A DNA stretch of 64,000 bases from Thiomicrospira cyclica ALM1 (GTDB taxonomy: Bacteria; Pseudomonadota; Gammaproteobacteria; Thiomicrospirales; Thiomicrospiraceae): the NCBI RefSeq assembly GCF_000214825.1, contig NC_015581.1, positions 1,054,001-1,118,000 on the forward strand. The letters run 5' to 3'. The notes beneath the pieces are model-generated. The model searched no databases, was not told the DNA's origin, and worked only from the letters and a program-made list of their open reading frames with translations. This document shows, piece by piece, positions 5,896 to 37,149 of this stretch. Made by a program: the position numbers and the translations under genes. Position 1 is the stretch's first letter. Each line of letters opens with the position of its first letter.

Positions 5896-6001
5896 ACTTC
5901 ACCATTCCTTTTCTAAATATTCATACGCCTTAGCAAAGTATAGCTAAGTCAATTAAACCATATCAAATAAATTGCTTTTCATGAATAAGCCCAGCTCACC
6001 A

Positions 6002-6070: not shown

Positions 6071-6078
6071 GTGGCACC

Positions 6079-12760: not shown

Positions 12761-15420
12761 GAGTTATCCTCATAAACATTAGAGTAAGTTTTATCCATAA
12801 TTTCCATGTAATCCTTAACTGATAGTCTCAAGATTTTGCTTGCTATTTCATCAGCCTCTATTAACCCAGAATTAAAAAGTGCCTTCGGCATTGCAAAGTT
12901 TGAAGTCAAATCATGCCAAGTTAAGAAAAACGGATCTAGGGTGGTGGTTGTTCGCATATATGAAGACTCATAATTTGTTGAGACAAAAAAATCCATATTG
13001 AATAATTTTACGCTACCCACATGAAATCGAAATATATCAAACAGTACGATTTGTAAAGCATTAGGAAAACCCTTAAAAAAAGGATTTTTGTTTTTTTCCC
13101 AAATTTTCAATGAAGGCTTTACCTTAACACCCTGTAAATTAAATCCTAAGCTACTGAAATCTTTTAACTTAGTATTCCTAAACAAAACCCAATCAAGATC
13201 ATTAACATTGTGCTCAATAAGATCAGATTTTTTTTTATCTAATAAATCATGATCAAGGTAAAGAGATATATTTGTTTTTGTTCCAAAGTAACATGGCTCA
13301 TACCCCGTTAGACCCTTATAGTTAAACCTTATAACAATATCACTATTATCGATTTCATCTCCGGAGAGAATACCATTATTAACAGGTCCAACAATTGCTA
13401 TACTTTTTCCAGCAACATACTCTTTAAAATCACGATCTTCAGCTGTATAGTCTAATTCGCTGTAACTTATGTAGTCCTCAATCTTGTTTTCAACTAGCTT
13501 TTCGAAACCTGTTAATTTAAAAAAGTCCAAACTAGATATTCTTATCGTATTATTAGATTTTTCAGAAGCAAGCCCCCTCAAATAATATGAGAACAATATT
13601 TTTTTATCCATCAACACTAAATTAACTAGTGCAAGTAAAGTTTCTTCATCTAAAAGACAAAGAAGTTGTTTTTTTCTTTCCAAAAAACTATAAATAATTT
13701 TTATACTATTTACAGTTGATTCATCAAGATAATTATTCAAAACGCCATCCGTCCTAAAGGCTAATGCAGCTATAGCATCAAGCGCTGCGCAAATCTCTTT
13801 ATCTATTTTAAAATATCGTTCTAATACGTTACGTATATTGCAAAAATCAGATGCATAAACTCTATATGGCGAATGCCTCACAAGTTTACCATTGGTTTTT
13901 CCGAAAAGAGTTTTTTCTACCGACCTAGTCGCTTGATTGTTTATTTTTGATAATTTAAACTTTTTAAAAGCAGAATATGTAAACTCATCTATAGAATTAG
14001 AGAGTATATCCTTTTTTACTTTTACCAATGCAAAGCGCCCAGAAAAAGATTTGTTTTCCGGATAAAATACGATCGCCTCTTCTAAAATTGAATATAACTG
14101 ATCGTTACAGTTCATGTTTTCAAGCGCAATCAACATCCTTTCGTAATCTAATTTTGATAAAACCGCTCTAATACTTTTTACCTTATTCCATATTAAAACT
14201 GCATCAGACCACTTTTTCTTTGCATTATTTAAGGCTGCAATTTCAGTTAAAACATTCACTTGATTAGGAAAAAATGAATTTGCTTCTGATAAAACCCCCA
14301 TTGATTGATCAAATAGCTTTAGACGGCGGTATGATATGGCCAGTTTCCAATACACTTCCGCTGGCGATTCGTCACCATAAGCTCTGTAGATCAATTCATA
14401 TAAGGTTTTCGCTTCTTGCCAGTTTTTGGCTTTCCTTGCTTTGTCGGCTAGGTCGAGTTGTTGTTGTAGCTCTGGAGTGATTTCGATAAACCTATAATTC
14501 GGGTAGTCGATGCACTGCGCATTGAGGCTGAGTGCGTTGATCGCTTTGTAGTCTTTGGGGTTGTTTAGGTTATTCGTCCAGCCAGCAACCGCAAGTGCAT
14601 GGGTGTGAGCCTGTTCGATTAAATCGCTGGTTAAACCTTTCCAATAAGCAAACCACACATCGCCACCGGCCTTTTTGATGGCCTGTGGGAAGCCTTGAGG
14701 GGTTTTGGGCTGATAACCTGCATACCAGGGGGCGTTGCCTGTTGCAAAGGCCGTTCGTAGTTTATTAAGATGCTCTTTTCCGCAGGCGAGCGAGAGTGTT
14801 TCTTCGCCCGTATCAATAAGCCAGTCTAAAGGATGAGTGGTAAACCAAGTTTTAGCTGTGGGTTGCTGTTTTTTGATTTCAATTAGGTTGCGCCAATCAA
14901 AACTGCAATATTCTGCGCGTTCTGTAAAATTCTCTTGCTCAACTTGGTTTAAAACAGCATCAACCAACGGTAACCAGGCCTGGTTGTTGTCTGCAAAAAT
15001 ATCGGTTTTTATTTCGATCAGTAATCGAAAGGACTCCGACTTTTGCTTGGCGAGTTGAATGACTTCTTGCAAGGTTGGAATGGTTTGGTTTTCTACCGGT
15101 AGTAGTTTTGGAAACTTTTTACGGTAGTCCGTATTCTGATTTGGCTCGCCGACGGTGTATTGTTTTAGCTCTTCTAGCGTAAGTTCACTGATTTGACGTT
15201 CTTCATCTTTCGTGAGCCATTGGCCATTGGGTTTGCGCGTATATAGGTGATTTAACTTGGCATTGTGATGAACTACAATTTGATTGTCTTTAGTCAGGTG
15301 AACATCTAGCTCTGCGCCCGCACAACCCAGCTCAATCGCAAATTCAAAGGCGGCCAGTGTGTTTTCAATATGGTAGCCCGCACCGCCACGGTGGGCGTAA
15401 ATTGCTGGTTTAGTTAACAT
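12757..15420 (-). CDS. GDPD - TPR - GT29 (sialyltransferase-like) fusion protein
   Basis: Protein of 887 residues. Residues ~1-300 are a glycerophosphodiester phosphodiesterase: IYAHRGGAGYHIENT, AELDVHLT and VVHHNAKL give the His, Glu and Asp metal/catalytic positions. No signal peptide is visible, so it is cytoplasmic. Residues ~320-480 look like TPR helices (WQEAKTLYELIYRAYGD). Residues ~660-870 carry SIAIVGPVNNGILSGDEID and DIVIRFNYKG, a good match to sialyl motif L, then FPNALQIVLFDIFRFHVGSV with LFNMDFF, like motif S. A conserved-looking WHDLTSNFAMPKA follows. It overlaps both neighbours (11 nt and ATGA). The combination is not one I know. Confidence 0.78.
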   Translation of the reverse strand: MLTKPAIYAHRGGAGYHIENTLAAFEFAIELGCAGAELDVHLTKDNQIVVHHNAKLNHLYTRKPNGQWLTKDEERQISELTLEELKQYTVGEPNQNTDYRKKFPKLLPVENQTIPTLQEVIQLAKQKSESFRLLIEIKTDIFADNNQAWLPLVDAVLNQVEQENFTERAEYCSFDWRNLIEIKKQQPTAKTWFTTHPLDWLIDTGEETLSLACGKEHLNKLRTAFATGNAPWYAGYQPKTPQGFPQAIKKAGGDVWFAYWKGLTSDLIEQAHTHALAVAGWTNNLNNPKDYKAINALSLNAQCIDYPNYRFIEITPELQQQLDLADKARKAKNWQEAKTLYELIYRAYGDESPAEVYWKLAISYRRLKLFDQSMGVLSEANSFFPNQVNVLTEIAALNNAKKKWSDAVLIWNKVKSIRAVLSKLDYERMLIALENMNCNDQLYSILEEAIVFYPENKSFSGRFALVKVKKDILSNSIDEFTYSAFKKFKLSKINNQATRSVEKTLFGKTNGKLVRHSPYRVYASDFCNIRNVLERYFKIDKEICAALDAIAALAFRTDGVLNNYLDESTVNSIKIIYSFLERKKQLLCLLDEETLLALVNLVLMDKKILFSYYLRGLASEKSNNTIRISSLDFFKLTGFEKLVENKIEDYISYSELDYTAEDRDFKEYVAGKSIAIVGPVNNGILSGDEIDNSDIVIRFNYKGLTGYEPCYFGTKTNISLYLDHDLLDKKKSDLIEHNVNDLDWVLFRNTKLKDFSSLGFNLQGVKVKPSLKIWEKNKNPFFKGFPNALQIVLFDIFRFHVGSVKLFNMDFFVSTNYESSYMRTTTTLDPFFLTWHDLTSNFAMPKALFNSGLIEADEIASKILRLSVKDYMEIMDKTYSNVYEDNS

Positions 15421-21001: not shown

Positions 21002-21415
21002 TTAAATCTTATCAAGAATTTCTCTAAGCTTAGTGCTTGATGTGTGCGTGGTGTATGAGAAATATATTATTTCTACATTGACCTCGGCAAACTGTTTTTC
21101 GAGTTGGTTCCATTTTTCGGTTCCTTTCCAATCGTCGCCGACAAACATGCGATCAAACTTTAAGTTTTGCCAGGCTTCAAATTTATCCATATTGACTTGT
21201 GGCACCACTTCATCTACGAATTTTATGTGCTCGACAATCTCCATTCTTTCAAAAAATGGAATGATTGGCTTCTTGCCCTTTCTTTGTTCACAAAGTTCGT
21301 CGGTAGTCACACCGACGATGAGATAGTCACATTCTAGCTTTGCTCTTTTCAAAAGGTTTAAGTGTCCGATGTGAAATAAATCGTAAACGCCTGTTGTATA
21401 GCCAATTTTTTTCAT
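21002..21415 (-). CDS. tagD: Glycerol-3-phosphate cytidylyltransferase (TagD-like)
   Basis: Protein of 137 residues, close to the 129 of Bacillus TagD. TTGVYDLFHIGHLNLLKRAK carries the HxGH motif (residues 7-26). FVGDDWKGTEKW and SSTKLREIL follow, the latter replacing ISTTxI. It makes CDP-glycerol from CTP and glycerol-3-phosphate for the TagF-type transferases on both sides. It shares the HIGHLNLL and GDDWKG blocks with the protein at 3395-3865. It lies in the middle of the polymer operon with 1- and 16-nt spacers. Confidence 0.9.
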   Translation of the reverse strand: MKKIGYTTGVYDLFHIGHLNLLKRAKLECDYLIVGVTTDELCEQRKGKKPIIPFFERMEIVEHIKFVDEVVPQVNMDKFEAWQNLKFDRMFVGDDWKGTEKWNQLEKQFAEVNVEIIYFSYTTHTSSTKLREILDKI

Positions 21416-22894: not shown

Positions 22895-23893
22895 TTAAAC
22901 TTTCTCGTTATTAATTTGCTTGAGGACATCAGCAAGGCTTTTTGCACTATTACCGATAAACGCTTCTGGCAAGTATTGTTCAATAAAGTCTTTAACATCA
23001 CGATTAATGCCCTCACCCTGTTCTATGAATTCTATAACATCATCTATTGACTCTGCATGTAACCCGATTTTGTTTTCAAAAATATAAGCCTCGGCGCTAC
23101 CTTTTAGGTTTTCTTGAATTCTTTTACCTATTAACCAATTGGGAAAAATGACGGGTTTTCCTAGCGCCCAAGCCTCATATACGATGGTGCCAAAGTCTGA
23201 TATCACATAGTCAGCCTCGATTAGCGCATCAACGGTTGGTTTTTTATTTACAACTTTATTTCCAGGGTGTAGGGACTTTGTAAAATCGTACCTCCCTTCT
23301 AACAATGCTGTCCATTGACCAAACTCAGGATAGGAGGATGTTGATAAACCTTCTTTTCCTCGCTTTCGTCTATCATGGGTTGGTGCCCAGAGCACTTTGA
23401 CTTTTTCCGTTGGCTTTTGATTTGATTTGTATTTATTTTGCAAATCAATAAGCTCGTCAAGCCTTGGCCAACCCACACAGTGAATTTGATTTTCGTTTAG
23501 CGTTACTTTTGGATGATTAAGTAGTTTATTCTTTAACCATGGTCCAGGCACCAGGACATGTTTGCGCCTATTGATGTAACATTCTCCATTCTCATCTCGC
23601 ATTGTGAGGTAGTTTTTGTCAGCTACACCATGCGACATCAAAATATCTGCGCCACCACGCACAAATAAGTCAAAAGTATAAGTACATTTTTTTCTATATA
23701 AGCTATTTCTATATAGATTATTCTTTTTGAGTTTAAGTAGCTTGAATATTATTTTTTTTAAAATTATTTCATACCTAACAGTTAAATATGATCCCTGGGG
23801 CAAGTCAGCTTGTATGATATCAAAGATTTGCTTTTCTACTTGCCTATAATCTAACCCTGCTTCAGTAACAAAGCAAAAACAAACTTTATTCAT
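22895..23893 (-). CDS. TagF-like CDP-alditol phosphotransferase, tandem paralogue 1
   Basis: Protein of 332 residues with a CDP-glycerol glycerophosphotransferase-type core. It has MSHGVADKNYLT in place of the usual WHGT region, then HVLVPGPWLKNKL, VKVLWAPTHDRRKRG, SLHPGNKV and ADYVISDFGTIVYEAWALGKP. It is much shorter than TagF (~400 for the catalytic domain) and has no membrane segment. It is nearly identical in the middle to its neighbour at 23931-24932, while the first ~80 residues differ. Spacing of 8 nt to the LicD-like gene places it in the same operon. Confidence 0.84.
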   Translation of the reverse strand: MNKVCFCFVTEAGLDYRQVEKQIFDIIQADLPQGSYLTVRYEIILKKIIFKLLKLKKNNLYRNSLYRKKCTYTFDLFVRGGADILMSHGVADKNYLTMRDENGECYINRRKHVLVPGPWLKNKLLNHPKVTLNENQIHCVGWPRLDELIDLQNKYKSNQKPTEKVKVLWAPTHDRRKRGKEGLSTSSYPEFGQWTALLEGRYDFTKSLHPGNKVVNKKPTVDALIEADYVISDFGTIVYEAWALGKPVIFPNWLIGKRIQENLKGSAEAYIFENKIGLHAESIDDVIEFIEQGEGINRDVKDFIEQYLPEAFIGNSAKSLADVLKQINNEKV

Positions 23894-23930: not shown

Positions 23931-24932
23931 TTATTCGACACAACCTTTTAAAAACAATTCATTTATAGTGTTAGCACTTTGGCCATTTAAGTCTTCGGGT
24001 AGATAAGATTCCATAAATTGCTTCACATCATCGCCAATTTCTTTTTTCAACTCAATAAAATCAACAACCTCTTGGATAGAATTAGCATGTAATCCAATTT
24101 TATTTTCAAAAATATAAGCCTCGGCACTACCTTTTAGGTTTTTTTTAATTCTTTGCCCTATTAACCAATTAGGGAAAATGACGGGTTTCCCAAGCGCCCA
24201 AGCCTCATACACGATGGTGCCAAAGTCTGATATTACATAGTCGGCCTCGATTAGCGCATCAACGGTTGGTTTTTTATCTAGAACCTTGTTTCTCGGGTGT
24301 AAAGATTTTGTGTAATCGAACTTATCTTCTAACAACTCTGTCCATTGATCAAACTCAGGATAGGAGGATGTTGATAAACCTTCTTTTCCTCGCTTTCGTC
24401 TATCATGGGTTGGTGCCCAGAGCACTTTAACTTTTTCCGTTGGCTTTTGATTTGATTTGTATTTATTTTGCAAATCAATAAGCTCGTCAAGCCTTGGCCA
24501 ACCCACACAGTGAATTTGATTTTCGTTTAGCGTTATTTTTGGGTGATTAAGTAGTTTATTCTTTAACCATGGTCCAGGCACCAGGACATGTTTGCGCCTA
24601 TTGATGTAACATTCTCCATTCTCATCTCGCATTGTGAGGTAGTTTTTGTCTGCTACACCATGCGACATAAGCACATCACCACTTGCACGAATAAACATAT
24701 CAAAACTTAAACCATTTTTTATGGTTTTCTTTTTTTTCTTTATAAAGTCGACTTCTTTAATTGTTGTATAAGACCCTTTCGGCATCTTATTTTGTATGAT
24801 ATTAAATGTTTGTTTTTGTACCTGACTATAGTTTCGCCCAGCTCTAATTAAAAAATAGATATGGGATATCTTTTTTTTATTCGAAAATGTTTTTTGTATT
24901 TTTTTTATTATTTTTCGTATTGTTTTTTTCAT
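23931..24932 (-). CDS. TagF-like CDP-alditol phosphotransferase, tandem paralogue 2
   Basis: Protein of 333 residues from ATG 24932; a TTG eight codons upstream is possible but lacks support. It has the same motifs as its neighbour (MSHGVADKNYLT, VLWAPTHDRRKRG, SLHPRNKVLDKK, VISDFGTIVYEAWALG). The N-terminal 60 residues are very Lys-rich (KKTIRKIIKKIQ, KKKKKTIKNG), and the coding DNA there is poly-T rich. Divergent ends with a near-identical centre suggest that the pair acts on related but different acceptors. Confidence 0.84.
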   Translation of the reverse strand: MKKTIRKIIKKIQKTFSNKKKISHIYFLIRAGRNYSQVQKQTFNIIQNKMPKGSYTTIKEVDFIKKKKKTIKNGLSFDMFIRASGDVLMSHGVADKNYLTMRDENGECYINRRKHVLVPGPWLKNKLLNHPKITLNENQIHCVGWPRLDELIDLQNKYKSNQKPTEKVKVLWAPTHDRRKRGKEGLSTSSYPEFDQWTELLEDKFDYTKSLHPRNKVLDKKPTVDALIEADYVISDFGTIVYEAWALGKPVIFPNWLIGQRIKKNLKGSAEAYIFENKIGLHANSIQEVVDFIELKKEIGDDVKQFMESYLPEDLNGQSANTINELFLKGCVE

Positions 24933-24945
24933 TAACGTTTCCTTT

Positions 24946-26409
24946 TCACTCTGCAAGGTCTAATTTAATTACACGAGTAAACTGGTCAAATGCACTATCT
25001 TTAAAATCACATAAAGATGCGGTTCTTATTGCATAGCGTATTGCTTGCATGGTGTCTTGTTGATCTATTGTGGTTAACAGCTTGTCAATTTCTTTCCCGT
25101 CATTGAGCACATAAGCGGCTTGGGTTGAGGGGAACTCTTGGTTCATTTCTTCAAGTGGGTAGTGTTTTGTATTGCATAGGATAATGGGTTTATTGGTGAT
25201 GAGGTATTCGTTTAATACGCTTGAAATATCGGTAATTAATGCATCACTTTGGTTCATTAGGTCGTGCAATTCCGCTGAGGAATCCGGTAGATGGATATCC
25301 ACGTTATTTTCTTTACAGAGCTGTAGGATTCGCTTTAGGTATTGCGCGTTTTTAGCTTGTTTTCTGCCGGTGTAGGGATGGGGTTTGAAAATGAGTTTGT
25401 ATTTTTGGGTGTTAATGATTGTTTTAACCATGTCGTAACCCAGTTCATTAATTGAGCTGTAGTTGACGTTGTCAACAAAGCCTTCCCAGGTCGGAGCATA
25501 GAGTAGTGTTTTTATCGGTTGTGGTTGTTCAATTTGCTCTAGGAAAAGCTCGGCTTGTGGTCTGCCAACATGTTCTATTTGGCCGTCTCTAATTGGCAGG
25601 CCTGCTTCTCTTAGGCGTTTTTCGGCGAGTGGACCACCAACCAGCAGCTTGTCGTAAGCCATGAGTAGTTTGCTTTGGTTTACGGCTTTGTCACTTTCGC
25701 CATGGTTTATAAAGTAGTGGTTTAGATGATAAAAACGCAGCGCTTGTACGTTTTTCATGGTGTTAGCTGGGTATAAAACGGTTTTTAGGGTTGGTGCATT
25801 GCTGATAAGTGTTTCTACATCAATCTGTGCTCTTGCATAGAAGGTTGGTATAGGGGTTGGCTTCATACCTTTATAGATGGATTTTTCTCGCACGATAATA
25901 ATGGCGGGAATCGCCATTTTCTCTAAAACGGGCAGCCATTGATTGACTTGGTAAGCGACGCCTTCTAAACCTGAAATATAAATGGCGACCTTTGGATTGG
26001 TCTTTTTTAGCAGTTTAAGTGATTCACCTTTTAGTTGTTTGCGTTGGATTAGACGCAGCGCCAGGTAGGCAAAATAATAACTGGTAAGTAGGATGGCTGT
26101 TAGGACAAACACATAGCTTAACATTAGGTCAATAAATAAGAGTATGGGGGTTAGGATTAAAATCTGTGGAATGCGTTTTATAAAGCGCGGTAAAAAAGCC
26201 TTGGTATGGATCATGTGCTCAACAGGCACCGCTGCACGCTCGACGAGCGGATAGAGCGCAATCGCGTTTTGCAAGCCTATCGCCAAAATGACTGGAAGCA
26301 ACTGCCAAAAGCTGATCGTATCTTGGAGGTACACGAACAACACTAAGCCTAGGAGCGTGAGGAAGTTAATAATGGCGTTTTTGTTCAAAAGCTTGGTTAG
26401 GATTGACAT
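24946..26409 (-). CDS. CDP-glycerol glycerophosphotransferase family protein with membrane N-terminus
   Basis: Protein of 487 residues. The first ~125 residues contain four hydrophobic segments (FLTLLGLVLFVYLQ, LLPVILAIGLQNAIAL, ILILTPILLFIDLML and YVFVLTAILLTSYYF). A GT-B type CDP-glycerol transferase domain follows, with FINHGESDKAV (His-Gly pair), LLYAPTWEGF, IFKPHPYTGRK and DALITDISSVLNEYL. The enzyme would add alditol phosphates at the inner membrane. It is 1 nt away from the upstream LicD-like gene and 13 nt from the downstream start. Confidence 0.88.
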   Translation of the reverse strand: MSILTKLLNKNAIINFLTLLGLVLFVYLQDTISFWQLLPVILAIGLQNAIALYPLVERAAVPVEHMIHTKAFLPRFIKRIPQILILTPILLFIDLMLSYVFVLTAILLTSYYFAYLALRLIQRKQLKGESLKLLKKTNPKVAIYISGLEGVAYQVNQWLPVLEKMAIPAIIIVREKSIYKGMKPTPIPTFYARAQIDVETLISNAPTLKTVLYPANTMKNVQALRFYHLNHYFINHGESDKAVNQSKLLMAYDKLLVGGPLAEKRLREAGLPIRDGQIEHVGRPQAELFLEQIEQPQPIKTLLYAPTWEGFVDNVNYSSINELGYDMVKTIINTQKYKLIFKPHPYTGRKQAKNAQYLKRILQLCKENNVDIHLPDSSAELHDLMNQSDALITDISSVLNEYLITNKPIILCNTKHYPLEEMNQEFPSTQAAYVLNDGKEIDKLLTTIDQQDTMQAIRYAIRTASLCDFKDSAFDQFTRVIKLDLAE

Positions 26410-27987: not shown

Positions 27988-28078
27988 GAGATTCCGGCCT
28001 GCGCCGGAATGACGGAAACCTCAGCCGGAATGACGGAAACCTCAGCCGGAATGACTGGGTTAGATTCAGGATGACGAG
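27988..28078. repeat. Degenerate tandem palindromic repeats
   Basis: One full unit, ATTCCGGCCTGCGCCGGAAT (27991-28010), is followed by two half-units CTCAGCCGGAATGACGGAAA-like and a TTCAGGATGAC tail, all of the same family as the repeats around galE. The last part overlaps the 3' end of the gene at 28066-28737 and supplies its stop codon. Confidence 0.82.
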
Positions 28079-28737
28079 GCGGAAACACCTAAACACGAAA
28101 AATATTGGTCTATTTTTGCTGCTAGTGGTTTTTTTGCTGTTACACCGTCCGCCCATAAAGCATGCACGCCCTGAACTCTTACAGGCATTTTCTTGATACC
28201 CACTATGCGAGCTATTGCAAAACGATGGAACCCACTCTCGCCCTTCAAAATATCGCCATCAGCATCTATATAAACCTTGGCGACATCCTTACCTTTTGAG
28301 AGATCAAACCCATCGGCAATTAAACTTTCATAGAGCGCAATAACATAGCCGTTAAAAAAGGCGTGAACCTCATCCAAATTAGTCATCGATAACTTTTTGT
28401 GCCTCGCCTCACCTTTTTGATGAAGATCTGTAACCAGTTTTTTAAACCAGATGCTCTGTTCATAATTGTCTATATTTTGAATAAAGTCGCTGATAATTTG
28501 ATAACGAACAACACTCTCAACAGGTTGCCTGATATCTGAAAAAGCTTGTTCTGAAATAATAAAAGGTAAAGGCTGATCAAAAAACTTGCTTACAAGGCTA
28601 AACCTTGTTTTATTAACGCGCCTTTTAACAACATAAGGAAAGCTACTTTTTGGCACATAAAAACTAATGCGTGCAGGGTTTATCCAATAAACATTATTTC
28701 TTAACGTATCCAAATTATTAAAAGGATTGTTAAACAT
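28066..28737 (-). CDS. ParB/Srx-fold-like protein of a glycan locus
   Basis: Protein of 223 residues from ATG 28737, 2 nt after the previous stop. The C-terminal part has DADGDILKGESGFHRFAIAR and GIKKMPVRVQGVH. This matches the G-x-HR-x-A-x-A-x-x-x-G pattern of the ParB/sulfiredoxin-like nucleotide-binding fold, which also includes the free-serine kinase SerK. No DNA-binding domain is present, so chromosome partitioning is unlikely. A role as small-molecule or glycan kinase is inference. The last codons and the stop lie within a palindromic repeat, so the natural C-terminus may have been replaced. Confidence 0.62.
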   Translation of the reverse strand: MFNNPFNNLDTLRNNVYWINPARISFYVPKSSFPYVVKRRVNKTRFSLVSKFFDQPLPFIISEQAFSDIRQPVESVVRYQIISDFIQNIDNYEQSIWFKKLVTDLHQKGEARHKKLSMTNLDEVHAFFNGYVIALYESLIADGFDLSKGKDVAKVYIDADGDILKGESGFHRFAIARIVGIKKMPVRVQGVHALWADGVTAKKPLAAKIDQYFSCLGVSASSS

Positions 28738-28739
28738 GA

Positions 28740-29399
28740 TTAACACCTTGTTAACGGATCGGTTGCGTCAAAGTAAGCGTCAAATACCTTCAGAGCAAGT
28801 GTTCTGGATATATTTCCGGCGGCAACATAAGGCCAGCTATCAACATCGGTGTCCGCAACAACTCGCGTCATATTATCTCTAAAAGTAACCGGAATATGAC
28901 TCCAGCCTAAAGCTGTTAGAGCTGCGGCACGATGCTTCGCACCATTTACATAAAAACGATATTCGTTACCACGCTTGAGAAAAAACCCATCTACATGACC
29001 AAATTTATGCGGTAAATAACCCTGCTTTTTAATACTGTTATAAGTATTGATCACACGCTGGTATTCTAACGATAACTTAGCCTCACTAACCGGACCGTAA
29101 AAAGATGCGCCATGTTCTGCTGACAACCCATTTTCACCCGTTGGTATCTTAGACTCTCTTAAAAACCAGGGTTCATCGTAGGGTTTTAAATGATATCCTT
29201 GCTCACTTGGATTAATCCTAACACCACACATTTCAGCAAGGGTTTGGGGGACAAACTGCTGATAGAAATTGGCAAATTTTTCTTTTGAATCATTTCTAAT
29301 CAGTTCAACAAATGGATGATACCCAGAATCATAGTGATGCGCACCGGGCATAACCAGCATTTTGTCGGGATATGCATAATTGGCAGGCGCCCAACTCAA
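28740..29399 (-). CDS. ParB/Srx-fold-like protein, second copy
   Basis: Protein of 219 residues. The C-terminal half has VDGFFLKRGNEYRFYVNGAK, HRAAALTALGWSHIPVTFRD, the same pattern as the neighbour at 28066 and the plus-strand gene at 34900. It starts at TTG 29399, which overlaps the stop of the small upstream reading frame (TTGA). Alternatively the small frame and this one were once one gene now separated by a frameshift, because reading through gives a continuous polypeptide. The ligand is unknown. Confidence 0.58.
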   Translation of the reverse strand: MSWAPANYAYPDKMLVMPGAHHYDSGYHPFVELIRNDSKEKFANFYQQFVPQTLAEMCGVRINPSEQGYHLKPYDEPWFLRESKIPTGENGLSAEHGASFYGPVSEAKLSLEYQRVINTYNSIKKQGYLPHKFGHVDGFFLKRGNEYRFYVNGAKHRAAALTALGWSHIPVTFRDNMTRVVADTDVDSWPYVAAGNISRTLALKVFDAYFDATDPLTRC

Positions 29400-29566
29400 T
29401 ATTGAAGCAAATCAACCTGTTGTTCGGCATGAAGTATTTCAACCAATTGTGACTTGTTTTTACGCTGATTAACGGCAGTTAAAATACACGTTTTGCTGGC
29501 ATCAATCTGCAGAGAGGGCTTTTTGTGGTGCCTGGCTATTTTTTTAAACAGATTATGAGAAAACAT
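29396..29566 (-). CDS. Small basic protein or frameshifted N-terminus of the 28740 gene
   Basis: Fifty-six codons from ATG 29566 (MFSHNLFKKIARHHKKPSLQ), 1 nt after the O-antigen ligase stop. The N-terminus is basic. The C-terminus (LVEILHAEQQVDLLQY) ends in the TTGA overlap with the next gene. No family is recognised. It is either an independent small protein translationally coupled to the ParB/Srx-like gene or that gene's original N-terminus. Confidence 0.45.
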   Translation of the reverse strand: MFSHNLFKKIARHHKKPSLQIDASKTCILTAVNQRKNKSQLVEILHAEQQVDLLQY

Positions 29567-29567
29567 A

Positions 29568-30899
29568 CTATTGGACCTTTCCCTCACGGTTACGAGACAT
29601 GACAATTAAAAATGTCATCAAAAATATAAAATGGGCTATGCCCGCACTCAAATTGAGGATCGCTTCTGGTTGCATTGCCAAGAAATAGGCGATAGTGACT
29701 AATAAACCCATAACAGGCCATGGAGAAAGCTGCGTTATATCGGTTTGTGCCCGCTTTTTATTTTGTCTTATCTGCACGATAAAATACCAAAAAAGGTAAC
29801 CCATCGTTGCCAGTAAACCTAAAAACGCAAAGATACCTCGTGTATAAGCTTCTTCAATAAACTGGTTATGGCGGTGACCAAAATCCAGTGCCCTATTTTC
29901 ATTAAATCGTTCTTGCATAATCTGTCTTGATGTTTTTGTAACAAAATCTCTTGCGTTTTCAATGCCAATACCGCGCCAAGGTTCTTGCTTAAAGCCAAGC
30001 CATGCGGCCTCCCACATAACAAAGCGTTGCCCAATGCTACCCGCACGCGTACCGTTAAAGTAATTTTCCACATCAACCTTTCCTTGCATAACCCGTTGCT
30101 CAATAGTGCTGTAGTTAAATACAACAGCTGAGCCCAATAAAACCGTGGCTGTAACAATACCCAGCAAAATTTGCTTTAATGACAGTTTATTATTTCGCTT
30201 TAGGTAATAAAGGTAAAATAAACTCCAGCCCAACACGGCCTCAGGAAAACCTAGCCAGGCCGAACGTGTTTGCGACATGACCGCACCTGAAAGTGCAACA
30301 AATAACGCGAGGGTTAAAAAGATTACCGCCCATAACCCGGTTTTAAATGCCCAAATATAACCACCCATTAATACAACAGCCATTAAAATACTGTAAATAC
30401 CAAAGCGCAATGGATTAGTGAAGGTAGTGCCAAATCGTGTTTTAGCGATCTCACTTAGGTTATCTAAGTGCCAGATTTCATAACCTAAATAGAAGGCAAT
30501 TGCACCCGTACCAATAATAAGTGATACCCATATTTGGTGTTCATTAAAGCGTAACTGCCAAAATAAAATAAATACATAAACTATCACCAGAATCGTGGCT
30601 AGCCTGCGCTGAATGACCATCCAACTTTTATCGCCCATGGGTTGATGAAATGGTATCGGCAAAATGGTTAAGGCAACAAAAAAAACTATTGCTACCAAAA
30701 ACCACTGCCAAGGCAGTTTTTTTAAGTCTTTAAGCGGTTGTCGATAAATGGCAATTGCCAATATGCCAAGCGCGAGAAATAAACTTTCAAATGAAAGCGG
30801 GCCTGGTAACAAAATAATCCAAAAAGAAAAACTGAGAAAAAAAACTTTCAGTAAATTGGATTGTTGTAATTGCGCTAACCCCAGCATTTTTTGATCCAT
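29568..30899 (-). CDS. O-antigen ligase / polymerase (Wzy_C) family membrane protein
   Basis: Protein of 443 residues from ATG 30899 with about ten to twelve hydrophobic segments. The large periplasmic loop and the Wzy_C signature are visible: VMSQTRSAWLGFP (catalytic Arg region), then GIGIENARDFV and DFGHRHNQFIEEAYTRGIFA with the conserved His. Ligases transfer undecaprenyl-linked polymer to lipid A-core, while polymerases join repeat units; motif data do not separate these. It overlaps the upstream glycosyltransferase by 25 nt. Confidence 0.87.
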   Translation of the reverse strand: MDQKMLGLAQLQQSNLLKVFFLSFSFWIILLPGPLSFESLFLALGILAIAIYRQPLKDLKKLPWQWFLVAIVFFVALTILPIPFHQPMGDKSWMVIQRRLATILVIVYVFILFWQLRFNEHQIWVSLIIGTGAIAFYLGYEIWHLDNLSEIAKTRFGTTFTNPLRFGIYSILMAVVLMGGYIWAFKTGLWAVIFLTLALFVALSGAVMSQTRSAWLGFPEAVLGWSLFYLYYLKRNNKLSLKQILLGIVTATVLLGSAVVFNYSTIEQRVMQGKVDVENYFNGTRAGSIGQRFVMWEAAWLGFKQEPWRGIGIENARDFVTKTSRQIMQERFNENRALDFGHRHNQFIEEAYTRGIFAFLGLLATMGYLFWYFIVQIRQNKKRAQTDITQLSPWPVMGLLVTIAYFLAMQPEAILNLSAGIAHFIFLMTFLIVMSRNREGKVQ

Positions 30900-31603
30900 G
30901 GTGACTTTTTCCACTGTTTATAGGAGGTCTCCGCCACGTCCTCAGGATTCGGCAAACCATGAAAAATAACTACAGCTGCGCCTTTTGGAACTACCGATTC
31001 CCCTTTTGGTTTTATCAACCCCTTTTTCATTAGCTTTTCACCAATACCTAGCCAAGACTGGCCTTGTGCCATGCAATTTTTTTTGAATGAAACGATAAGG
31101 TGATCTGGAAAAGTTGTTGCACCTGGAACAATCATACCCAACCAATCTTGATCACCGTCAAGGTTGTTTAATATCCATTGCTGATTGAAGACAAAGGCTT
31201 CCCAGATAAAAGGAACACTTCCAGCCTCAAATCGGATGACGGAACTATTAAAACGGGCGTTTAACCGCTTACCGCGAGATTTTATAGTGCAAAAGCTACC
31301 TGACGAAAAGCTTATTACTGGGTCCAAAGAATCAGTAATTACGACATCTAAATCCAGATAAAGCACTGTGCCTTTTAGTCCATAGCAATCAGAGTGAAAC
31401 AATGAAAGCTTATGCCACCACCCTTCTAGCTCAGGATTTTTAAGTTCCAAAACGCTAATTTCTGGGTATAAGCCTGCTGACTGTTCAGTAATGCAATGAA
31501 AAGAAAAGGGAACGGTTATATTTTTTTTTACCATTCGATAAAGACGGTTCACATATTCCGTGGAATATTTTGTACCCCATTTTAAACATACAATGTTAAT
31601 CAT
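30875..31603 (-). CDS. Glycosyltransferase with DxD motif (GT8-like)
   Basis: Protein of 242 residues with GT-A features. INIVCLKWGTKYSTEYVNRL forms the N-terminal nucleotide-binding strand, and VLYLDLDVVITDSLDPVI holds the metal-binding DLD (residues 84-86). WWHKLSLFHSD and RFNSSVIRFEAG follow. Similar proteins sit in LPS and capsule loci and use UDP-sugars. It overlaps the ligase gene downstream and the heptosyltransferase-like gene upstream by 8 nt. Donor and acceptor are not predictable. Confidence 0.78.
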   Translation of the reverse strand: MINIVCLKWGTKYSTEYVNRLYRMVKKNITVPFSFHCITEQSAGLYPEISVLELKNPELEGWWHKLSLFHSDCYGLKGTVLYLDLDVVITDSLDPVISFSSGSFCTIKSRGKRLNARFNSSVIRFEAGSVPFIWEAFVFNQQWILNNLDGDQDWLGMIVPGATTFPDHLIVSFKKNCMAQGQSWLGIGEKLMKKGLIKPKGESVVPKGAAVVIFHGLPNPEDVAETSYKQWKKSPWIKKCWG

Positions 31604-32657
31604 AATTAAACCTTAGTTTTAAGTTTTCAAACATTCGCCAAATATCATCAACCTTCATTCTACTAAAACACACCTGCCCTGCTGCTAGCGGACAGCGCGT
31701 TTGCATACAGGGTGAGCAGGCTAGGTCTAACCAGTAGGTGGTTGCTTGCCGCCCTTTTGCACCCGTCAATAGCGGATTGGTTGGTCCAAACAATGCTAGG
31801 GTTGGGCGCTCTAGTGCCGCGGCAAGGTGGGTTAAACCGGTATCGACACCAATAACTCCTTGCGCACCGGCGATGAGTTTTGCCCATTGGTCAAGGGGTT
31901 GTGGGGGTAGCATTTCGCCCCACTCGGCTAAGCGAATCATATCGGCTACTTGGTTTTGTTCCTTTTCGCCAACCCAGGGCAGTAATACCTTTAAACCGGC
32001 CTGTTTCGCTTTGATCAGAAGCGGCACCCACATGTCGGTTGGTAAATGTTTCGTTGGCCAAGTGGTTGCTTGGCAAAACACCAAGTAATCACCGGCGGCG
32101 GCCTGCCAGTTTGCTAGGTGTTCTGTTAAGGCAATCCCACTTAGGTCTAGGCCATAATCAAGGGAGCTATTTTCTACGGCAGGCTCATAGTCATAACCCA
32201 GACTTAATGCCATGAGTTTTCGGCTGCGATCCACGGCGTGCAGAGCACGGGACACATAGTGGGTATGGTCAAATAGTTTCGCGATGCCGGGGTCGTGTGC
32301 GGTATCTGCCGTTAAGCCGTGTTTTGGGCCGCGCGCCAGTTTGGCAACCTTCGCCCCTTTATTAACATATTGGTTTTCGATAATCGCATCATAATCCGTC
32401 GCTTGTATTTGGCGCTTAAAATTTTGGTAAAGTTTTAACGCTTGAAACGATAGGCGATTTTTATTGATGGCTAAACGCGGGTTAACAATCACTTGCTTAA
32501 CAGCTGGATGGAGTTTGGGCAGGTCTTTAAAGGGTGCTTCGACCACCCAGTCAAATTGAATACCGGGAATGGCTTTTTGCGCATCAGTTAGTGCTGGATA
32601 ACTGTGCACCAAATCGCCTAGCGATGACATTTTAATCAGCAGGACGCGCTTAGTCAT
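31596..32657 (-). CDS. GT9-family heptosyltransferase-like glycosyltransferase
   Basis: Protein of 353 residues starting KRVLLIKMSSLGDLVHSYPA, the GT9 N-terminal signature shared with WaaC/WaaF. The donor-site GVDTGLTHLAAALERPTLAL and FGPTNPLLTGAKG are in the C-lobe. A Cys-rich tail (LACSPCMQTRCPLAAGQVC) is common in this family. It is less similar to WaaC than the gene at 35510 and probably adds a heptose or another sugar to the outer core or polymer. It overlaps both neighbours by 8 nt. Confidence 0.86.
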   Translation of the reverse strand: MTKRVLLIKMSSLGDLVHSYPALTDAQKAIPGIQFDWVVEAPFKDLPKLHPAVKQVIVNPRLAINKNRLSFQALKLYQNFKRQIQATDYDAIIENQYVNKGAKVAKLARGPKHGLTADTAHDPGIAKLFDHTHYVSRALHAVDRSRKLMALSLGYDYEPAVENSSLDYGLDLSGIALTEHLANWQAAAGDYLVFCQATTWPTKHLPTDMWVPLLIKAKQAGLKVLLPWVGEKEQNQVADMIRLAEWGEMLPPQPLDQWAKLIAGAQGVIGVDTGLTHLAAALERPTLALFGPTNPLLTGAKGRQATTYWLDLACSPCMQTRCPLAAGQVCFSRMKVDDIWRMFENLKLRFNYD

Positions 32658-33714
32658 GTGTGGTCACCGCTGTAATGCCTAATTTTTGACAAAAGGCTTG
32701 CATAGCTTGCGTTTGCGCAGTTTGAACACCCGGTAACCATTGACTTGAAAAACCAAAGTAATGGGCTAAGAAAGTGGTGGTTGATAGGTCGCCGATAAAA
32801 CGCACGGTCTGATCTTGCCAATGGGCTAGCAAAACCTCAAAACTTAATTGGTCATTAAGACACTGAATCCCAAATTGCGCATTAAGGTTAAGCAAGTCTT
32901 TGCCCTGGGCGGCGGGATGGTATTTGACCGCGATCGTCTGCCCTTGCTGTTGGAGGTGTGTTATGAGCTGTGCAAGCCGCACTGGGTAGTCAGGCGTGGC
33001 TTTTATCAGGTAATAATTAGGCAAGGCGATTAAGACATCGGGGGCTTTTGTTGTTAGCAGGTCTGGCGCAAGTTGTTTTATTAGCAACTCGGCAATCGGC
33101 TGAAAAGCATTTAGGTCATCGCGGTTTAGGTCTAGATCATGACAACTTTTGTTGTTTAGCAACGCATTTGCTTCGGTGGGATACATCAGCCAAACACTAT
33201 CTATCCATTTGCTGGCACCAATGCTGCTGGGGCTGTCGTACCAGTTGCCGTAGCTGATTTTTTTTAAGGCTTGGTCAATAACCCGCTCGTGCCAGGATTT
33301 GGAGGCTTCGCGGCCCAAATAGCTGAATACGCCATCATCGAGGGCAATGTTGTTGCTGGTGTTACTTAATTGCATGACATATTGGCCAAACACGCTGCGA
33401 TCATTACCAATTAATATTCTTTCGTAATCGGTTTTCTGCCGTGCCTTTTTTGCTTGGTTAAAATCCTGTTTACGCTGGTTGAATTTTTGCCAGCCGCTCA
33501 GTTCTCGCCCTGCCCATAGTTGTGTACTTGTAAAGGGTGTTGCAACTTGGTTAAGCAAGGGGGTGAAAGCTAAGGGCTGATTGGTATATTGATCAATTAA
33601 CCATAAGTGCGCATCGCGTTGTGGTTGATTTTTGGCGGCCAGCAACCACGCCCAAAAAAAATGCAGACTGGACGAAACAAGGTAGAGATCTGTTGGACGG
33701 TTAGCGGCTGACAT
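32650..33714 (-). CDS. GT52/polysialyltransferase-like glycosyltransferase 1
   Basis: Protein of 354 residues. NNIALDDGVFSYLG provides a D/E-D-G motif, TIAVKYHPAAQGKD the KxHP element, and VRFIGDLSTTTFLAHYFG the S/T donor-binding motif. This order is seen in bacterial GT52 and polysialyltransferase enzymes, which use CMP-sialic-type donors. The downstream neighbour at 33701 has the same layout, so they are paralogues. A CMP-sugar synthetase exists at 9727, consistent with a CMP-sugar donor, though the link is inference. Confidence 0.68.
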   Translation of the reverse strand: MSAANRPTDLYLVSSSLHFFWAWLLAAKNQPQRDAHLWLIDQYTNQPLAFTPLLNQVATPFTSTQLWAGRELSGWQKFNQRKQDFNQAKKARQKTDYERILIGNDRSVFGQYVMQLSNTSNNIALDDGVFSYLGREASKSWHERVIDQALKKISYGNWYDSPSSIGASKWIDSVWLMYPTEANALLNNKSCHDLDLNRDDLNAFQPIAELLIKQLAPDLLTTKAPDVLIALPNYYLIKATPDYPVRLAQLITHLQQQGQTIAVKYHPAAQGKDLLNLNAQFGIQCLNDQLSFEVLLAHWQDQTVRFIGDLSTTTFLAHYFGFSSQWLPGVQTAQTQAMQAFCQKLGITAVTTHD

Positions 33715-34813
33715 GAATGGGTAGTTTCGTTAAATCTTCTATTATGTGAATACCAAATTGGGCAAAGTATGGCTTAAATTGTTGCGCATAAGCATCGTCG
33801 GCATTAAATACACCGGTAACTCCGACATCATCTCGCAGCCACTTTGCCGTCAGCAAAACGGTCGAAATATCGCCAACAACTTGCGTATTGGGCGGTAAAT
33901 CGGCTAGCAGATATTCGAAGGCCACATCTTTCGGGATGATAGTGACCGCTGGATTTTTAGCCAGCTGGTGTTCATCATCAACCGCCTGCCTGGGGTGGTA
34001 TTTTACCGCAACCTTGACACCCTGCTCGGTGATTTTATCTAAATAGCGTCTAATCTGTTGCACGTAATCGAGCATTTTGGCTTGATCAGCCGGATGCGGT
34101 AGTAACAACAGCAAGCTTATGGCTGACAGTTCCTGCCGGGGTAATTGCTTGGTAATGTGACGACAGAGTGCCCTAATGGCCGGGGTTTGAAACCAGTCTG
34201 TTTTTAGGGTGTACAGTCTTTTGTGTTGCAGTAACGGATGGGCCTGCTGAGGCTGAAACAACCAGGCCTGGTTAATCCAGCTGGATGCGCCAATGGTTTT
34301 CGGTTCTTGCCACCAAAGGCCGTAAGTGAGTTTTTTTAGCCAGGCGTTAACTTGGTCTTTGCCGGGCTGTACCGGCCAACCGGCATAAGAGTAGAGTCCA
34401 TCATCTAAGTACCAGCCCTGGGTGGGTTTGCAGTCCGACATATTGATCTGTTTATTGGTCTGTTTCATTAGGTGCATGGCGTATTGAAATTCGATGCGGC
34501 GGTCAGAGCCGGTCGCAATAATATCTGGCTGAAATTCGGCAAGATCTTGTTGAATCGCATGAAAGTTCTGTTTGCGCTCGCGGAGTTTTGCACGCCCTTT
34601 GGCTTTGCCCGGTAAACAGGTTACTCGTTTAAAGGGTGAATCGGACCATTGCTCTAAGGCATTTAAATAGGGATTGTTGTCGGTATTTTTTTGATCAATT
34701 AGCCAGATTTCGGCTTGAAAACTGTCGCCATGTTGTTGGCGTAAATGACATGCCAGCGCGGCTGACACTAGAATATTTAACGGTGTGGAGGGAAAAAATA
34801 AGACCTTTGCCAT
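33701..34813 (-). CDS. GT52/polysialyltransferase-like glycosyltransferase 2
   Basis: Protein of 370 residues, paralogous to the adjacent gene. It has GWYLDDGLYSYAGWP (D-D-G), VKVAVKYHPRQAVDDEH (KxHP) and TQVVGDISTVLLTAKWLRDD (S/T motif). IGASSWINQAWLFQP corresponds to IGASKWIDSVWLMYP in the neighbour. The start overlaps nothing and is the upstream end of this minus-strand operon. An 86-bp gap separates it from the divergent gene at 34900. Confidence 0.68.
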   Translation of the reverse strand: MAKVLFFPSTPLNILVSAALACHLRQQHGDSFQAEIWLIDQKNTDNNPYLNALEQWSDSPFKRVTCLPGKAKGRAKLRERKQNFHAIQQDLAEFQPDIIATGSDRRIEFQYAMHLMKQTNKQINMSDCKPTQGWYLDDGLYSYAGWPVQPGKDQVNAWLKKLTYGLWWQEPKTIGASSWINQAWLFQPQQAHPLLQHKRLYTLKTDWFQTPAIRALCRHITKQLPRQELSAISLLLLLPHPADQAKMLDYVQQIRRYLDKITEQGVKVAVKYHPRQAVDDEHQLAKNPAVTIIPKDVAFEYLLADLPPNTQVVGDISTVLLTAKWLRDDVGVTGVFNADDAYAQQFKPYFAQFGIHIIEDLTKLPIHVSR

Positions 34814-34899
34814 GAATTCGCTATTAACTCAGTAATTGTTGTAATATTTTCATTTGCCGTTAAAATCGCACCATTCTAACAAATATCTCGCTATTAAAA

Positions 34900-35541
34900 A
34901 TGTCATTACCCATCTATCCAAGCTTTTTTGAAGTGCTCAAAAACCTGCGCCAGTATGAAAATATCGGCAGTTTATATACCCAAAACCTTTTCCGTGATTG
35001 GCGGTTGCGTCAAAACCGGTTAACCTGGCCTACAGCTAGTTTGTTTCATCCGGTTTTTATCAACCCGTTTGCTGTGCAAGGACTTATATCAAGCCGGACG
35101 CTCTCAAAGCGTGGTAATTTTTTAATGCATAGATTGGGTACTTTTCAAACAGGTGACTGGGACCAAAACCTTAGACCACTGAATGAGCATAATCTTTTTC
35201 ACCGTTTTAAACAACGTTTTGAAGAGCAATGTCCATGGCATGAGCTGGATGATTTTAAAAAATTGACCACAAAAGAACAGCAACAAGCTTTTTTGCGTCG
35301 CGGTCAGGAAGTAGATGAGTTATTTGAGTCTCTTAAAAGCAAAGGTTGTCAATGGTCACCGGACATTCTGCGCATCAATATTGGACGAGATGGACAAATT
35401 ATTCGTAACTCTCGTGGCCTACACCGTTCGATTTTGCTGCAAATTCTAGGACAAACACGTATGCCTGCTTACATTCATGTGATTCACAAGGACTTTGATT
35501 TAATCAAAATCAATGACGTTTTACTTCAACAAAATCAGTAA
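34900..35541 (+). CDS. ParB/Srx-fold-like protein, third copy, plus strand
   Basis: Protein of 213 residues, the only plus-strand gene between 1 and 39.6 kb. The C-terminal part has RINIGRDGQIIRNSRGLHRS and ILLQILGQTRMPAYIHVIHK, the D-G...G-x-HR pattern shared with the genes at 28066 and 28740. It is read divergently from the GT52-like genes and runs 32 bp into the 3' end of waaC on the opposite strand. No membrane segment is seen. The function is unknown. Confidence 0.62.
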   Translation: MSLPIYPSFFEVLKNLRQYENIGSLYTQNLFRDWRLRQNRLTWPTASLFHPVFINPFAVQGLISSRTLSKRGNFLMHRLGTFQTGDWDQNLRPLNEHNLFHRFKQRFEEQCPWHELDDFKKLTTKEQQQAFLRRGQEVDELFESLKSKGCQWSPDILRINIGRDGQIIRNSRGLHRSILLQILGQTRMPAYIHVIHKDFDLIKINDVLLQQNQ

Positions 35542-36547
35542 TAGCGCAGATGACATCTTCCACACCTAACCCCTCTAATGAGGCTTGCTCTTGACCAGGC
35601 TGAAACTTTTTAATGTAATTGGGTGCTAATGGTGAGCACAGGTGCGTGACCTTTTGCCCCAGTGCACCGACGCGTTTTGGATCCGTAACACGATAGAGCA
35701 CCACCAGTGGCACATCGAGCGCGGCGGCGACATGTGACAAGCCGGTATCTACCGAAACCACCGCTGTGGCGTGTTTTAGTAACCGCGCCATGTCATTGAG
35801 TTTTAGCGGTTCGGTTGGGCACCAGGCCTGCTGTTCCGTTAAACCGGCGGCGAGTCGTTGAGAACGCGCCTGTTCTTCGGCATTGCCCCAGGGCAGAATC
35901 ACTTGATAGCCTTGTTGATTGAGTTTGCTGATAAGCGCTTGCCAATAGTCTTCGGGCCAGTATTTGGTTGCCCAGGTGGTGCCGTGTAAACAAACGATGT
36001 AGCGCTGATGGTTCACCTGCGCTAGCGGCAACCAGGCCTGGTGATTTAATCCGTAACAAATCGGCGTGCTGGGCATTGGATAATTGAGGGCTTTGGCGAA
36101 GAGTTCGCGTAACCGTGTAATCGCATGTTGGTCTGTTGCGACCGAAATTTTTTGACCATAAAACACGCTGGCGAGTTTTTCGCGTGCCGATGCCCAATCT
36201 AGGCCCACTTTCTGGTCTTTGGGCGTGGCGATTTTTTGGGTAACCCAGGCACTTTTTAACAAGCCTTGCGCATCAATCACCAGGTCGTAATCTTGTTGGT
36301 TTACCTGTTCAAAGAAGACTTTGGCCGCTTGGCGAGTATGTTTTGCAAACGGCTGTTTGCGCCATTGGCGCAGATTAATCGGCAAGACGCGATCAACCAC
36401 TGGATGCCAAGCGGGGATTTCCGCAAAGCTCTCTTCCACTATCCAATCCACCACCAGGCCTGGTATCGCCTGCTGGGCATCGGTTAGTGCTGGGAAGGTG
36501 TGAAACACATCCCCCATCGACGACATTTTGACAAGTAGTATTCTCAA
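35510..36547 (-). CDS. waaC: Lipopolysaccharide heptosyltransferase I
   Basis: Protein of 345 residues of GT9. The N-terminus RILLVKMSSMGDVFHTFPAL closely follows the conserved WaaC start, supporting the TTG at 36547 as the true initiator. VIDAQGLLKSAW and VSVDTGLSHVAAALDVPLV complete the donor and acceptor sites. It adds the first L-glycero-D-manno-heptose to Kdo2-lipid A. The TTG lies in a TTGA overlap with the zeta-toxin gene stop. Three CAGGCCTG sites fall inside the gene. Confidence 0.92.
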   Translation of the reverse strand: MRILLVKMSSMGDVFHTFPALTDAQQAIPGLVVDWIVEESFAEIPAWHPVVDRVLPINLRQWRKQPFAKHTRQAAKVFFEQVNQQDYDLVIDAQGLLKSAWVTQKIATPKDQKVGLDWASAREKLASVFYGQKISVATDQHAITRLRELFAKALNYPMPSTPICYGLNHQAWLPLAQVNHQRYIVCLHGTTWATKYWPEDYWQALISKLNQQGYQVILPWGNAEEQARSQRLAAGLTEQQAWCPTEPLKLNDMARLLKHATAVVSVDTGLSHVAAALDVPLVVLYRVTDPKRVGALGQKVTHLCSPLAPNYIKKFQPGQEQASLEGLGVEDVICAITDFVEVKRH

Positions 36548-37149
36548 ACTTGAGTACCCTCATCAAAAAAGTCCTGCGCCCAATTTGGCAAAGCAGTCAA
36601 ATAACGCCGGACTAACTTGCCATCTGCAAACCTAGCAACCAGCATCGGTAACTCGCCATCAACTGTATTGTCATATAAATAAAACCTATCAACAAGATCA
36701 CGAGCTTGATAAGCGTTTATTATGGACTTTTGATAACGACTAATTATTTTATTAATTGGAACTTCGTGGCCACCTTCCAAAAATCTTTGCGCAATTCTTG
36801 AGGCATTGATCACTGGTGAATTTGTGCATATAAAAAATAATCTTATAAAATAACCTGCTTTTTTAGCTTGTTTTATAAAATCGAGCTTTTCTTCAGTCGA
36901 AAACACTGTTTCAAAAGCAATACTTTTTTTTTGTGACAGGAGTTCATAGCGCAACGCAGTGGCTTGCTTTGCTGCTTTAAGTACACTTGAGACATCATTC
37001 CAGCCATCAAAGTCATTTTGAGCAATAAAGTCAGGGTTAATGTAATGACACCCCTCGAACCACTCGTGCTCTAAACCTTGTTCAGTTATGGTTGTTTTTC
37101 CTGAACCATTAGGCCCCGCTACAATAATAAGACTAGGCTTCTTTTGCAT
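36544..37149 (-). CDS. Zeta-toxin-family P-loop kinase
   Basis: Protein of 201 residues with Walker A GPNGSGKTT at residues 12-20, YINPDFIAQNDF, AFETVFSTEEKLDFI and a basic RIAQRFLEGGHEVP segment. This is the zeta toxin / UDP-N-acetylglucosamine kinase layout. Zeta toxins phosphorylate UDP-GlcNAc and block envelope synthesis. It sits directly between waaC (TTGA overlap) and its putative antitoxin gene. Family relatives may also be housekeeping kinases, so toxin activity is inferred. Confidence 0.83.
   Translation of the reverse strand: MQKKPSLIIVAGPNGSGKTTITEQGLEHEWFEGCHYINPDFIAQNDFDGWNDVSSVLKAAKQATALRYELLSQKKSIAFETVFSTEEKLDFIKQAKKAGYFIRLFFICTNSPVINASRIAQRFLEGGHEVPINKIISRYQKSIINAYQARDLVDRFYLYDNTVDGELPMLVARFADGKLVRRYLTALPNWAQDFFDEGTQV

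Follow-up and report, generated by a model that had tools for sequence, protein, structure and literature searches.

Here we ask why a single lipopolysaccharide (LPS) locus should hold three divergent proteins of the ParB/sulfiredoxin (ParB/Srx) type, and what such proteins might be doing there. The window analysed is a stretch of 64,000 nucleotides (contig NC_015581.1, positions 1,054,001 to 1,118,000 of the forward strand) that forms part of the complete 1.93 Mb genome of Thiomicrospira cyclica ALM1, and the three open reading frames (ORFs), called P1, P2 and P3, all lie inside an LPS-core/surface-glycan locus that Pfam matches and the ORF list place at about 21-40 kb of the window. A first-pass annotation, made from the DNA letters, had assigned the three to the ParB/Srx fold, had noted that they lack DNA-binding domains and had proposed a class of glycan or precursor kinases. 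The analysis indicates that P1-P3 represent a new clade of this known fold, with a probable role in the envelope glycan.

Three genes of one locus share a domain

The three ORFs are present at about the positions given by the first-pass annotation, but the literal pattern by which it had linked them (D-G-x5-G-x-HR-x-[AS]-x4-[LI]-G) has no match in the window: P1 and P3 show a spacing of seven residues from D-G to G, and P2 carries G-x-x-HR. Of the 273 frames that run from stop to stop over 60 amino acids or more, only P1, P2 and P3 contain a core pattern, G-x(1,2)-H-R-x7-G-x3-[VIM]-P-[VA], and residue shuffles (n = 1000) gave a mean of 0.0 matches, none of them with three or more. Because this pattern was fitted to the three ORFs it demonstrates rarity rather than homology, and it is with this caveat that the shuffles rule out a chance motif.

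P1 and P3 match each other in a whole-genome search (E = 7.0e-5 and 5.5e-5), and P2 joins them at the profile level only, with probabilities of 94.8% and 94.5% and, when more rows were included, 96.7% (E = 4.4e-10). P2 aligns with the P1/P3 profile along the stretch 'SI..G ... G-x-HR ... (I)PV', and four control comparisons using two profiles of unrelated proteins of the locus gave probabilities of 0.1-0.3%. At the level of sequence profiles, P1, P2 and P3 are thus shown to share descent of this domain. None of the three matches Pfam ParB_N (PF02195) even at E <= 1, nor do any of the 16 members of alignment A10 or the 5 members of alignment A1, and no family in Pfam or NCBIfam covers P1-P3 or their relatives above its cut-off.

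The sister species (G060) holds all three genes, whose order and orientation match those in the window when the genes for the ligase and the heptosyltransferases are taken as reference (homologues in L013 of P3 at 5689-6360, P2 at 12642-13502 and P1 at 13492-14166). In the comparison with this species the proportion of nonsynonymous differences (pN) was well below that of synonymous differences (pS) in P1, P2 and P3 (0.39 vs 0.78 for P1, and 0.23 vs 0.73 for the 3' part of P2); pS is close to saturation and therefore no pN/pS ratios are quoted. The coding sequences of the three genes show purifying selection. The P2 relative in G060 is 286 amino acids long, and P2 is a fragment in T. cyclica: its N-terminal part meets a TGA codon where the relative has Trp, and a frame slip follows. 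P2 seems to be a recently broken gene, apparently lost in this strain, and because its 3' part still presents such a low pN the damage would be recent, or an assembly error. The P2 relatives in G060 and G058 are intact. A fourth gene of G060, P2-like, lies about 30 kb from the others, next to genes for an ABC transporter and an asparagine-synthetase-like protein (both labelled by reading). Among 62 genomes of the order (own genome included), P1 was found in two, P2 in three and P3 in two, within a single genus.

The earlier observation thus stands as regards three ORFs with one remote domain, and falls as regards its literal pattern and an intact P2. That the three are divergent copies holds for P1 and P3, which belong to deep separate clades, and for P2 as a distant member, with the reservation that P2 looks broken in this strain.

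Fold and hallmarks of the family

The ParB/Srx fold claimed by the first-pass annotation was borne out by a structure model for P3 and by remote homology for P1 and P2. The AlphaFold2 model of P3 (template-free, with 15 other rows) had a predicted local distance difference test score (pLDDT) of 77.3 and a predicted template-modelling score of 0.71, with block means of 84-98 over residues 81-200 and a poor region at residues 1-46. Searched with this model, Foldseek returned ParB/Srx-type structures in all of its top 45 rows (Srx, Noc, KorB, ParB, PadC, Atu1540, SerK and SbnI), and VIA-align did so in rows 1-25, the best being 6ky4, an Arabidopsis sulfiredoxin (Z 6.5, 82 residues, 3.2 Å), and the first unrelated row having Z 4.3. 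The solved relatives so found include the serine kinases SerK and SbnI, the former having been named in the first-pass annotation as a member of the fold.

Comparison of the family profile (A11) with a profile of canonical ParB_N proteins (A17) gave a probability of 74.1% (E = 2.8e-5), the alignment being in register, with G-x-HR placed on GERR and the 'SI..G' helices matched; a profile of the heptosyltransferase WaaC, used as a control, reached 0.2% against ParB. A17 comprises seven domains, since 3 of 10 ParB loci were dropped for want of a GERR match, and ten further ParB loci from the same search were left out. SbnI was the sole sensible match among PDB profiles for three profiles, always below threshold (E = 0.13-1.1), ParB-like PHROGs were matched weakly over the motif by 5 of 8 family members, and the A11 search also reached a Pfam ParB_N protein in G584. 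A loop of the phosphate-binding type (G-E-R-R or G-x-H-R, followed by a helix and an (I/V)PV strand) is present in the family. Pentatricopeptide repeat proteins that matched A11 at E 1e-6 were rejected as a helical-repeat artefact: they aligned repeatedly to the 'LYESI..GY' helix, and no single stretch exceeded 6 bits.

Conserved residues were counted over 35 alignment rows and are given in P3 numbering. The most constant are G165 and R176 (35/35), followed by P56, G149, G173 and H196 (34/35), P189 (33/35) and H175 and W87 (32/35). About 60 residues with short helices and a (G)DWD motif part the first strands from the 'SI..G' helix, and the near-invariant H196 closes the last core strand, a position at which none of the seven canonical ParB domains has a His. 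Two hallmarks set the family apart from ParB, the helical insert with (G)DWD and a nearly invariant His that follows the last core strand. In P1, R163 is lost and Phe stands in the column of W87, which may mean a different substrate or activity. In the alignment, examined for a counterpart of Glu30 of SerK, no conserved acid directly follows the first strand and candidate acids occur in the insert only.

The three proteins could be thought of as transcription regulators of the locus, akin to ParB-type activators of biosynthetic clusters. EdeB, a ParB-family protein, is reported to raise edeine production (PMC9641203), and a PDB title calls SbnI a bifunctional transcriptional regulator. However, neither a helix-turn-helix (HTH) domain nor any other DNA-binding Pfam domain was found in P1-P3 at E <= 1, as the first-pass annotation had supposed, and two or three unlike copies per locus, together with the methyltransferase fusion described below, are not what a regulator would lead one to expect. 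We regard a regulatory role as very unlikely.

Distribution and genomic context

Profile A11 found matches in 7 of 369 genomes of the class and 12 of 398 of the phylum (own genome included in both), four further phylum matches being rows of the profile itself. Among the seven class matches, G701 is P2-like and G584 (L088), considered as a family member, was rejected as a ParB_N-type protein. The family is thus present in about 2-3% of the sampled Pseudomonadota genomes and in haloarchaea, where relatives occur on 16 plasmid records and at 16 loci in genome contigs. P2 does not represent a common family of its own: profile A1 matched 1 of 299 and A14 1 of 398 phylum genomes, each time its own. 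Other P2-like proteins were seen in 3 of the 62 order genomes (own included), in G701 (through A11) and in an Acetoanaerobium record, which by reading is not in a glycan locus. The one PF02195 match in the T. cyclica genome is a canonical ParB at 1853286, outside P1-P3.

The phylogeny divides the family in two with support of 100/99 and has many long branches. Clade 1 joins P1 to the proteins of G107/G761/G715/G790, G069, G714, G720 and G441 (the joining of P1 to G720 may be an artefact), and clade 2 holds P3, the haloarchaeal proteins and the other bacterial ones. Since P1 and P3 fall on either side of this split, a recent duplication giving rise to the two was rejected, with the long branches and the P1-G720 join as a reservation. 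The near copies L038 and L040 were excluded from A10, A11 and the tree, L034, L035 and L037 entered A10 and were left out of both A11 and the tree, and G353, a weak broken match, was dropped.

The association with glycan loci extends well beyond this genome, in bacteria and in haloarchaea. We tallied Pfam families among the 80 ORFs, up to three per side, that flank the family gene at 14 bacterial loci, leaving out the window, G060, G584 and G701; the 14 are not fully independent, as G107/G761 and G131/G199 share genera. Glycos_transf_1 accounts for 14 of these neighbours and Glycos_transf_2 for 6, with 3 of sulfotransferase families, 2 lipid A acyltransferases and 2 O-antigen ligases. None of these families is among the 25 listed for 84 control ORFs from elsewhere in the same 14 genomes, where one-member families were not all listed and the control count is hence at most 1 per family. 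Glycan genes were recognised by reading at 10 of the 14 loci. For haloarchaea we considered 15 of 17 plasmid places (H21 and H22 excluded), with flanks of 12 kb for the first three and of 6 kb or up to the record end for the others, and annotated glycan genes lie near 11 of them: eight Halobaculum records (flippase and epimerase), Natronorubrum, one Natrononativus place and Halobellus. The family gene directly follows a Gfo/Idh/MocA oxidoreductase gene in 6 of the 8 Halobaculum records. In G755 (L077:6323-7777) the family domain is fused to a C-terminal S-adenosylmethionine-dependent methyltransferase domain, again in a glycan locus.

LPS loci are variable regions that gather genes, and P1-P3 might be nucleases or mobile-element proteins that merely happen to sit in one; some ParB domains nick DNA (PMC5512222). 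Against this stand the conserved synteny with the sister species and the purifying selection, as well as the nature of the enriched neighbours, which are glycan genes. P2 had no phage match at E <= 0.01, and no viral-contig relatives appeared for P2 or for the P1/P3 alignment, the P1/P3 scan being a weak one whose patterns missed the conserved loop. Such an origin seems highly improbable.

By Pfam, the locus in the window (Table 1) codes for an O-antigen ligase, a cytidylyltransferase, an APH-type kinase, two heptosyltransferases of the GT9 type and two polysialyltransferase-like proteins, of which one scores below cut-off; it also has Glyphos_transf genes and a LicD gene close to the cut-off. 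This content raises the alternative of another nucleotide-dependent step, in which the family would make a nucleotide-activated polyol or transfer a phospho-polyol in loci where CDP-glycerol genes abound. A CTP_transf_like gene is paired with a family member in the window and in G630, the Glyphos_transf and LicD genes point in the same direction, and cytidine triphosphate (CTP) is bound by the ParB fold. However, no cytidylyltransferase family is among the neighbour families listed for the 14 loci, and we know of no ParB/Srx-fold member that performs nucleotidyl transfer; we hold this alternative to be quite unlikely.

Table 1. Coordinates of P1-P3 and of neighbouring genes in the window
Feature	Position	Strand	Remarks
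P1	28066..28737	-	ORF; likely start ATG 28737; motif G-F-HR at ~28233
P2, 3' part	28740..29399	-	Distant third member; TTG as sole start; motif G-A-K-HR at ~28943
P2, 5' part (other frame)	29396..29566	-	From ATG 29566 to in-frame TGA 29398-29396; probable pseudogene
P3	34900..35541	+	ParB/Srx fold with helical insert; motif G-L-HR at ~35416
O-antigen ligase-like (Wzy_C)	29568..30914	-	Pfam; immediately upstream of P2
Possible glycosyltransferase	30875..31603	-	Label by reading; no Pfam hit
Heptosyltransferase-like (GT9)	31596..32657	-	Pfam
Polysialyltransferase-like	32650..33714	-	Below Pfam cut-off
Polysialyltransferase-like	33701..34813	-	Pfam; divergently oriented from P3
Heptosyltransferase-like (GT9)	35510..36547	-	Pfam; converges on P3 with 32-base overlap; identical arrangement in L013
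CTP_transf_like cytidylyltransferase (TagD-like)	21002..21415	-	Pfam; such a gene also adjoins the G630 family member

Other features of these loci were noted in passing. The G755 fusion gene adjoins glycosyltransferase and sulfotransferase genes, and sulfotransferase-like genes recur near family members at L080, L086, L087 and L077 (labels partly by reading), which makes a link to glycan sulfation possible. A Zeta_toxin-like kinase gene (36544-37149, minus strand; Pfam E = 1.2e-10) lies between heptosyltransferase and epimerase genes, and no ORF of this kind is listed at the matching place in L013 of G060. Two adjacent glycerophosphotransferase-like ORFs on the minus strand (22895-23893 and 23931-24956) have nearly identical C-terminal halves and different N-termini, a pattern resembling the outcome of gene conversion or duplication. 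A galE-like ORF (738-1832, minus strand) has an in-frame stretch resembling a dispersed repeat located just downstream of P1 (28010-28065), and two nucleotide-sugar enzyme ORFs of L013 (14926-16221 and 16752-17951) seem to hold inserts similar to it. The long ORF at 12757-15420 (minus strand) combines, by reading, a glycerophosphodiesterase-like part, TPR-like repeats and a further domain.

Proposed function and comparison with known systems

Because the family couples the ParB/Srx fold with sugar-polymer gene neighbours in both bacteria and haloarchaea, its proteins are probably nucleotide-using glycan enzymes. The reading that we tentatively put forward is that P1-P3 belong to a branch of the fold not described before, which takes part in building the envelope glycan by moving a nucleotide phosphate to a glycan-type acceptor. 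The G-x-HR loop would hold a nucleoside tri- or diphosphate, as the same loop does in ParB, Srx and SerK; the (G)DWD insert and the near-invariant His may form a pocket for a sugar, a polyol or a lipid-linked glycan, to which the phosphate would then pass; and P1 and P3, belonging to separate deep clades, would act on different acceptors. Phosphotransfer is our best guess because the family sits among transferase genes and because the characterised HTH-less enzymes of the fold (SerK, SbnI and Srx) are phosphotransferases (PMC12704722, PMC3482391, PMC5120207). Of the earlier interpretation, then, the fold, the lack of a DNA-binding domain and the glycan association are upheld, and its kinase part is a plausible conjecture. 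The more specific version, a new class of ParB/Srx-fold kinases of glycans or their precursors, with the insert and the His as acceptor site and with three ancient members serving different acceptor positions in one LPS locus, we hold to be rather doubtful.

Several observations weigh against phosphotransfer to a glycan. The fold match is numerically weak, no Foldseek row reaching E <= 0.001 and Z being below 8; we accept the fold because the match list, the sequence motif and the profiles agree. For P2, the profile comparison with canonical ParB gave 15.6% (E = 0.0017) and a single-sequence model had pLDDT 32, so that its fold is assigned by homology alone. D88 of (G)DWD is kept in 27 of 35 rows, with an ambiguous alignment of P1 there, neither P1 nor its sister copy retains R163 of the IGRDG strand, and no catalytic base was identified in the 35 rows. 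By reading, no glycan genes are obvious at G714, G720, G160 and, less clearly, G069, and none is evident near 4 of the 15 haloarchaeal places (two Natrarchaeobaculum, the other Natrononativus place and Halorubrum). Any phosphate that is required could come from the APH-type kinase of the locus (L013 has another). The fold has many members that are not kinases, and PMC12704722 and PMC5512222 describe it acting elsewhere as a nucleoside triphosphate (NTP) switch, scaffold or nuclease.

The main rival is a role without catalysis, in which the protein, gated by a bound NTP (perhaps CTP), would assist a glycosyltransferase or an export complex as accessory or scaffold subunit. In ParB, Noc and PadC the fold acts as a switch or a scaffold (PMC12704722), PadC (6ryk) is among the fold matches of P3, the family gene often directly adjoins one GT4-type gene, and the failure to find a catalytic base would fit as well. 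On the other hand, the conserved and family-specific polar residues W87, D88 and H196 suggest a specific pocket, and the methyltransferase fusion in a glycan locus is equally compatible with enzyme work. Weighing these points, we consider an accessory role unlikely, if less so than a polyol-related, regulatory or nuclease function.

Glycan loci are rich in genes annotated as hypothetical, and the family supplies a motif and a testable reaction that would cover such genes in the 2-3% of sampled Pseudomonadota genomes mentioned above and in many haloarchaea. To our knowledge, the kinases known to phosphorylate LPS cores and archaeal glycans all have other folds. If phosphotransfer to a glycan is true, a fold of DNA segregation and redox repair extends to cell-surface chemistry. 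No paper that connects glycan synthesis with the ParB/Srx fold came to light, in a search that most subscription papers fell outside and that does not prove absence. A 2025 survey of the ParB-CTPase fold describes a wide diversity, with ATP-, GTP- or CTP-binding proteins and a methyltransferase fusion (PMC12704722); the query given there is PF02195, which misses P1-P3, and the words 'glycan', 'polysaccharide' and 'glycosyltransferase' are absent from its main text. The family is a branch of the fold invisible to surveys based on that model.

Among the known systems, SerK (an ADP-dependent free serine kinase) and SbnI share with the P1-P3 family the ParB/Srx core, the G-x-HR-type loop and the lack of an HTH domain, with structural and weak profile matches. 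They differ in that the family has the helical insert, the conserved His after the last strand and a glycan context; the NCBIfam SerK model scores 11.6 bits against a cut-off of 380, and the family alignment revealed no counterpart of SerK Glu30, whose role as base is deduced from mutants named in PDB titles. Sulfiredoxin provides the best structural match of P3, and is likewise a small protein of a phosphotransferase fold without a DNA-binding domain, whereas the family is longer, with the insert and an extra N-terminal part, and has F (P1), K (P2) or L (P3) in place of cysteine before HR, the position that we take to be that of the Srx active-site Cys. Canonical ParB, Noc and KorB, which act as CTPase clamps, share the core fold, and their 'SI..G' helix and GERR-like loop align with those of the family, whereas the family matches neither PF02195 nor, in Pfam at E <= 1, an HTH or C-terminal dimerisation domain.

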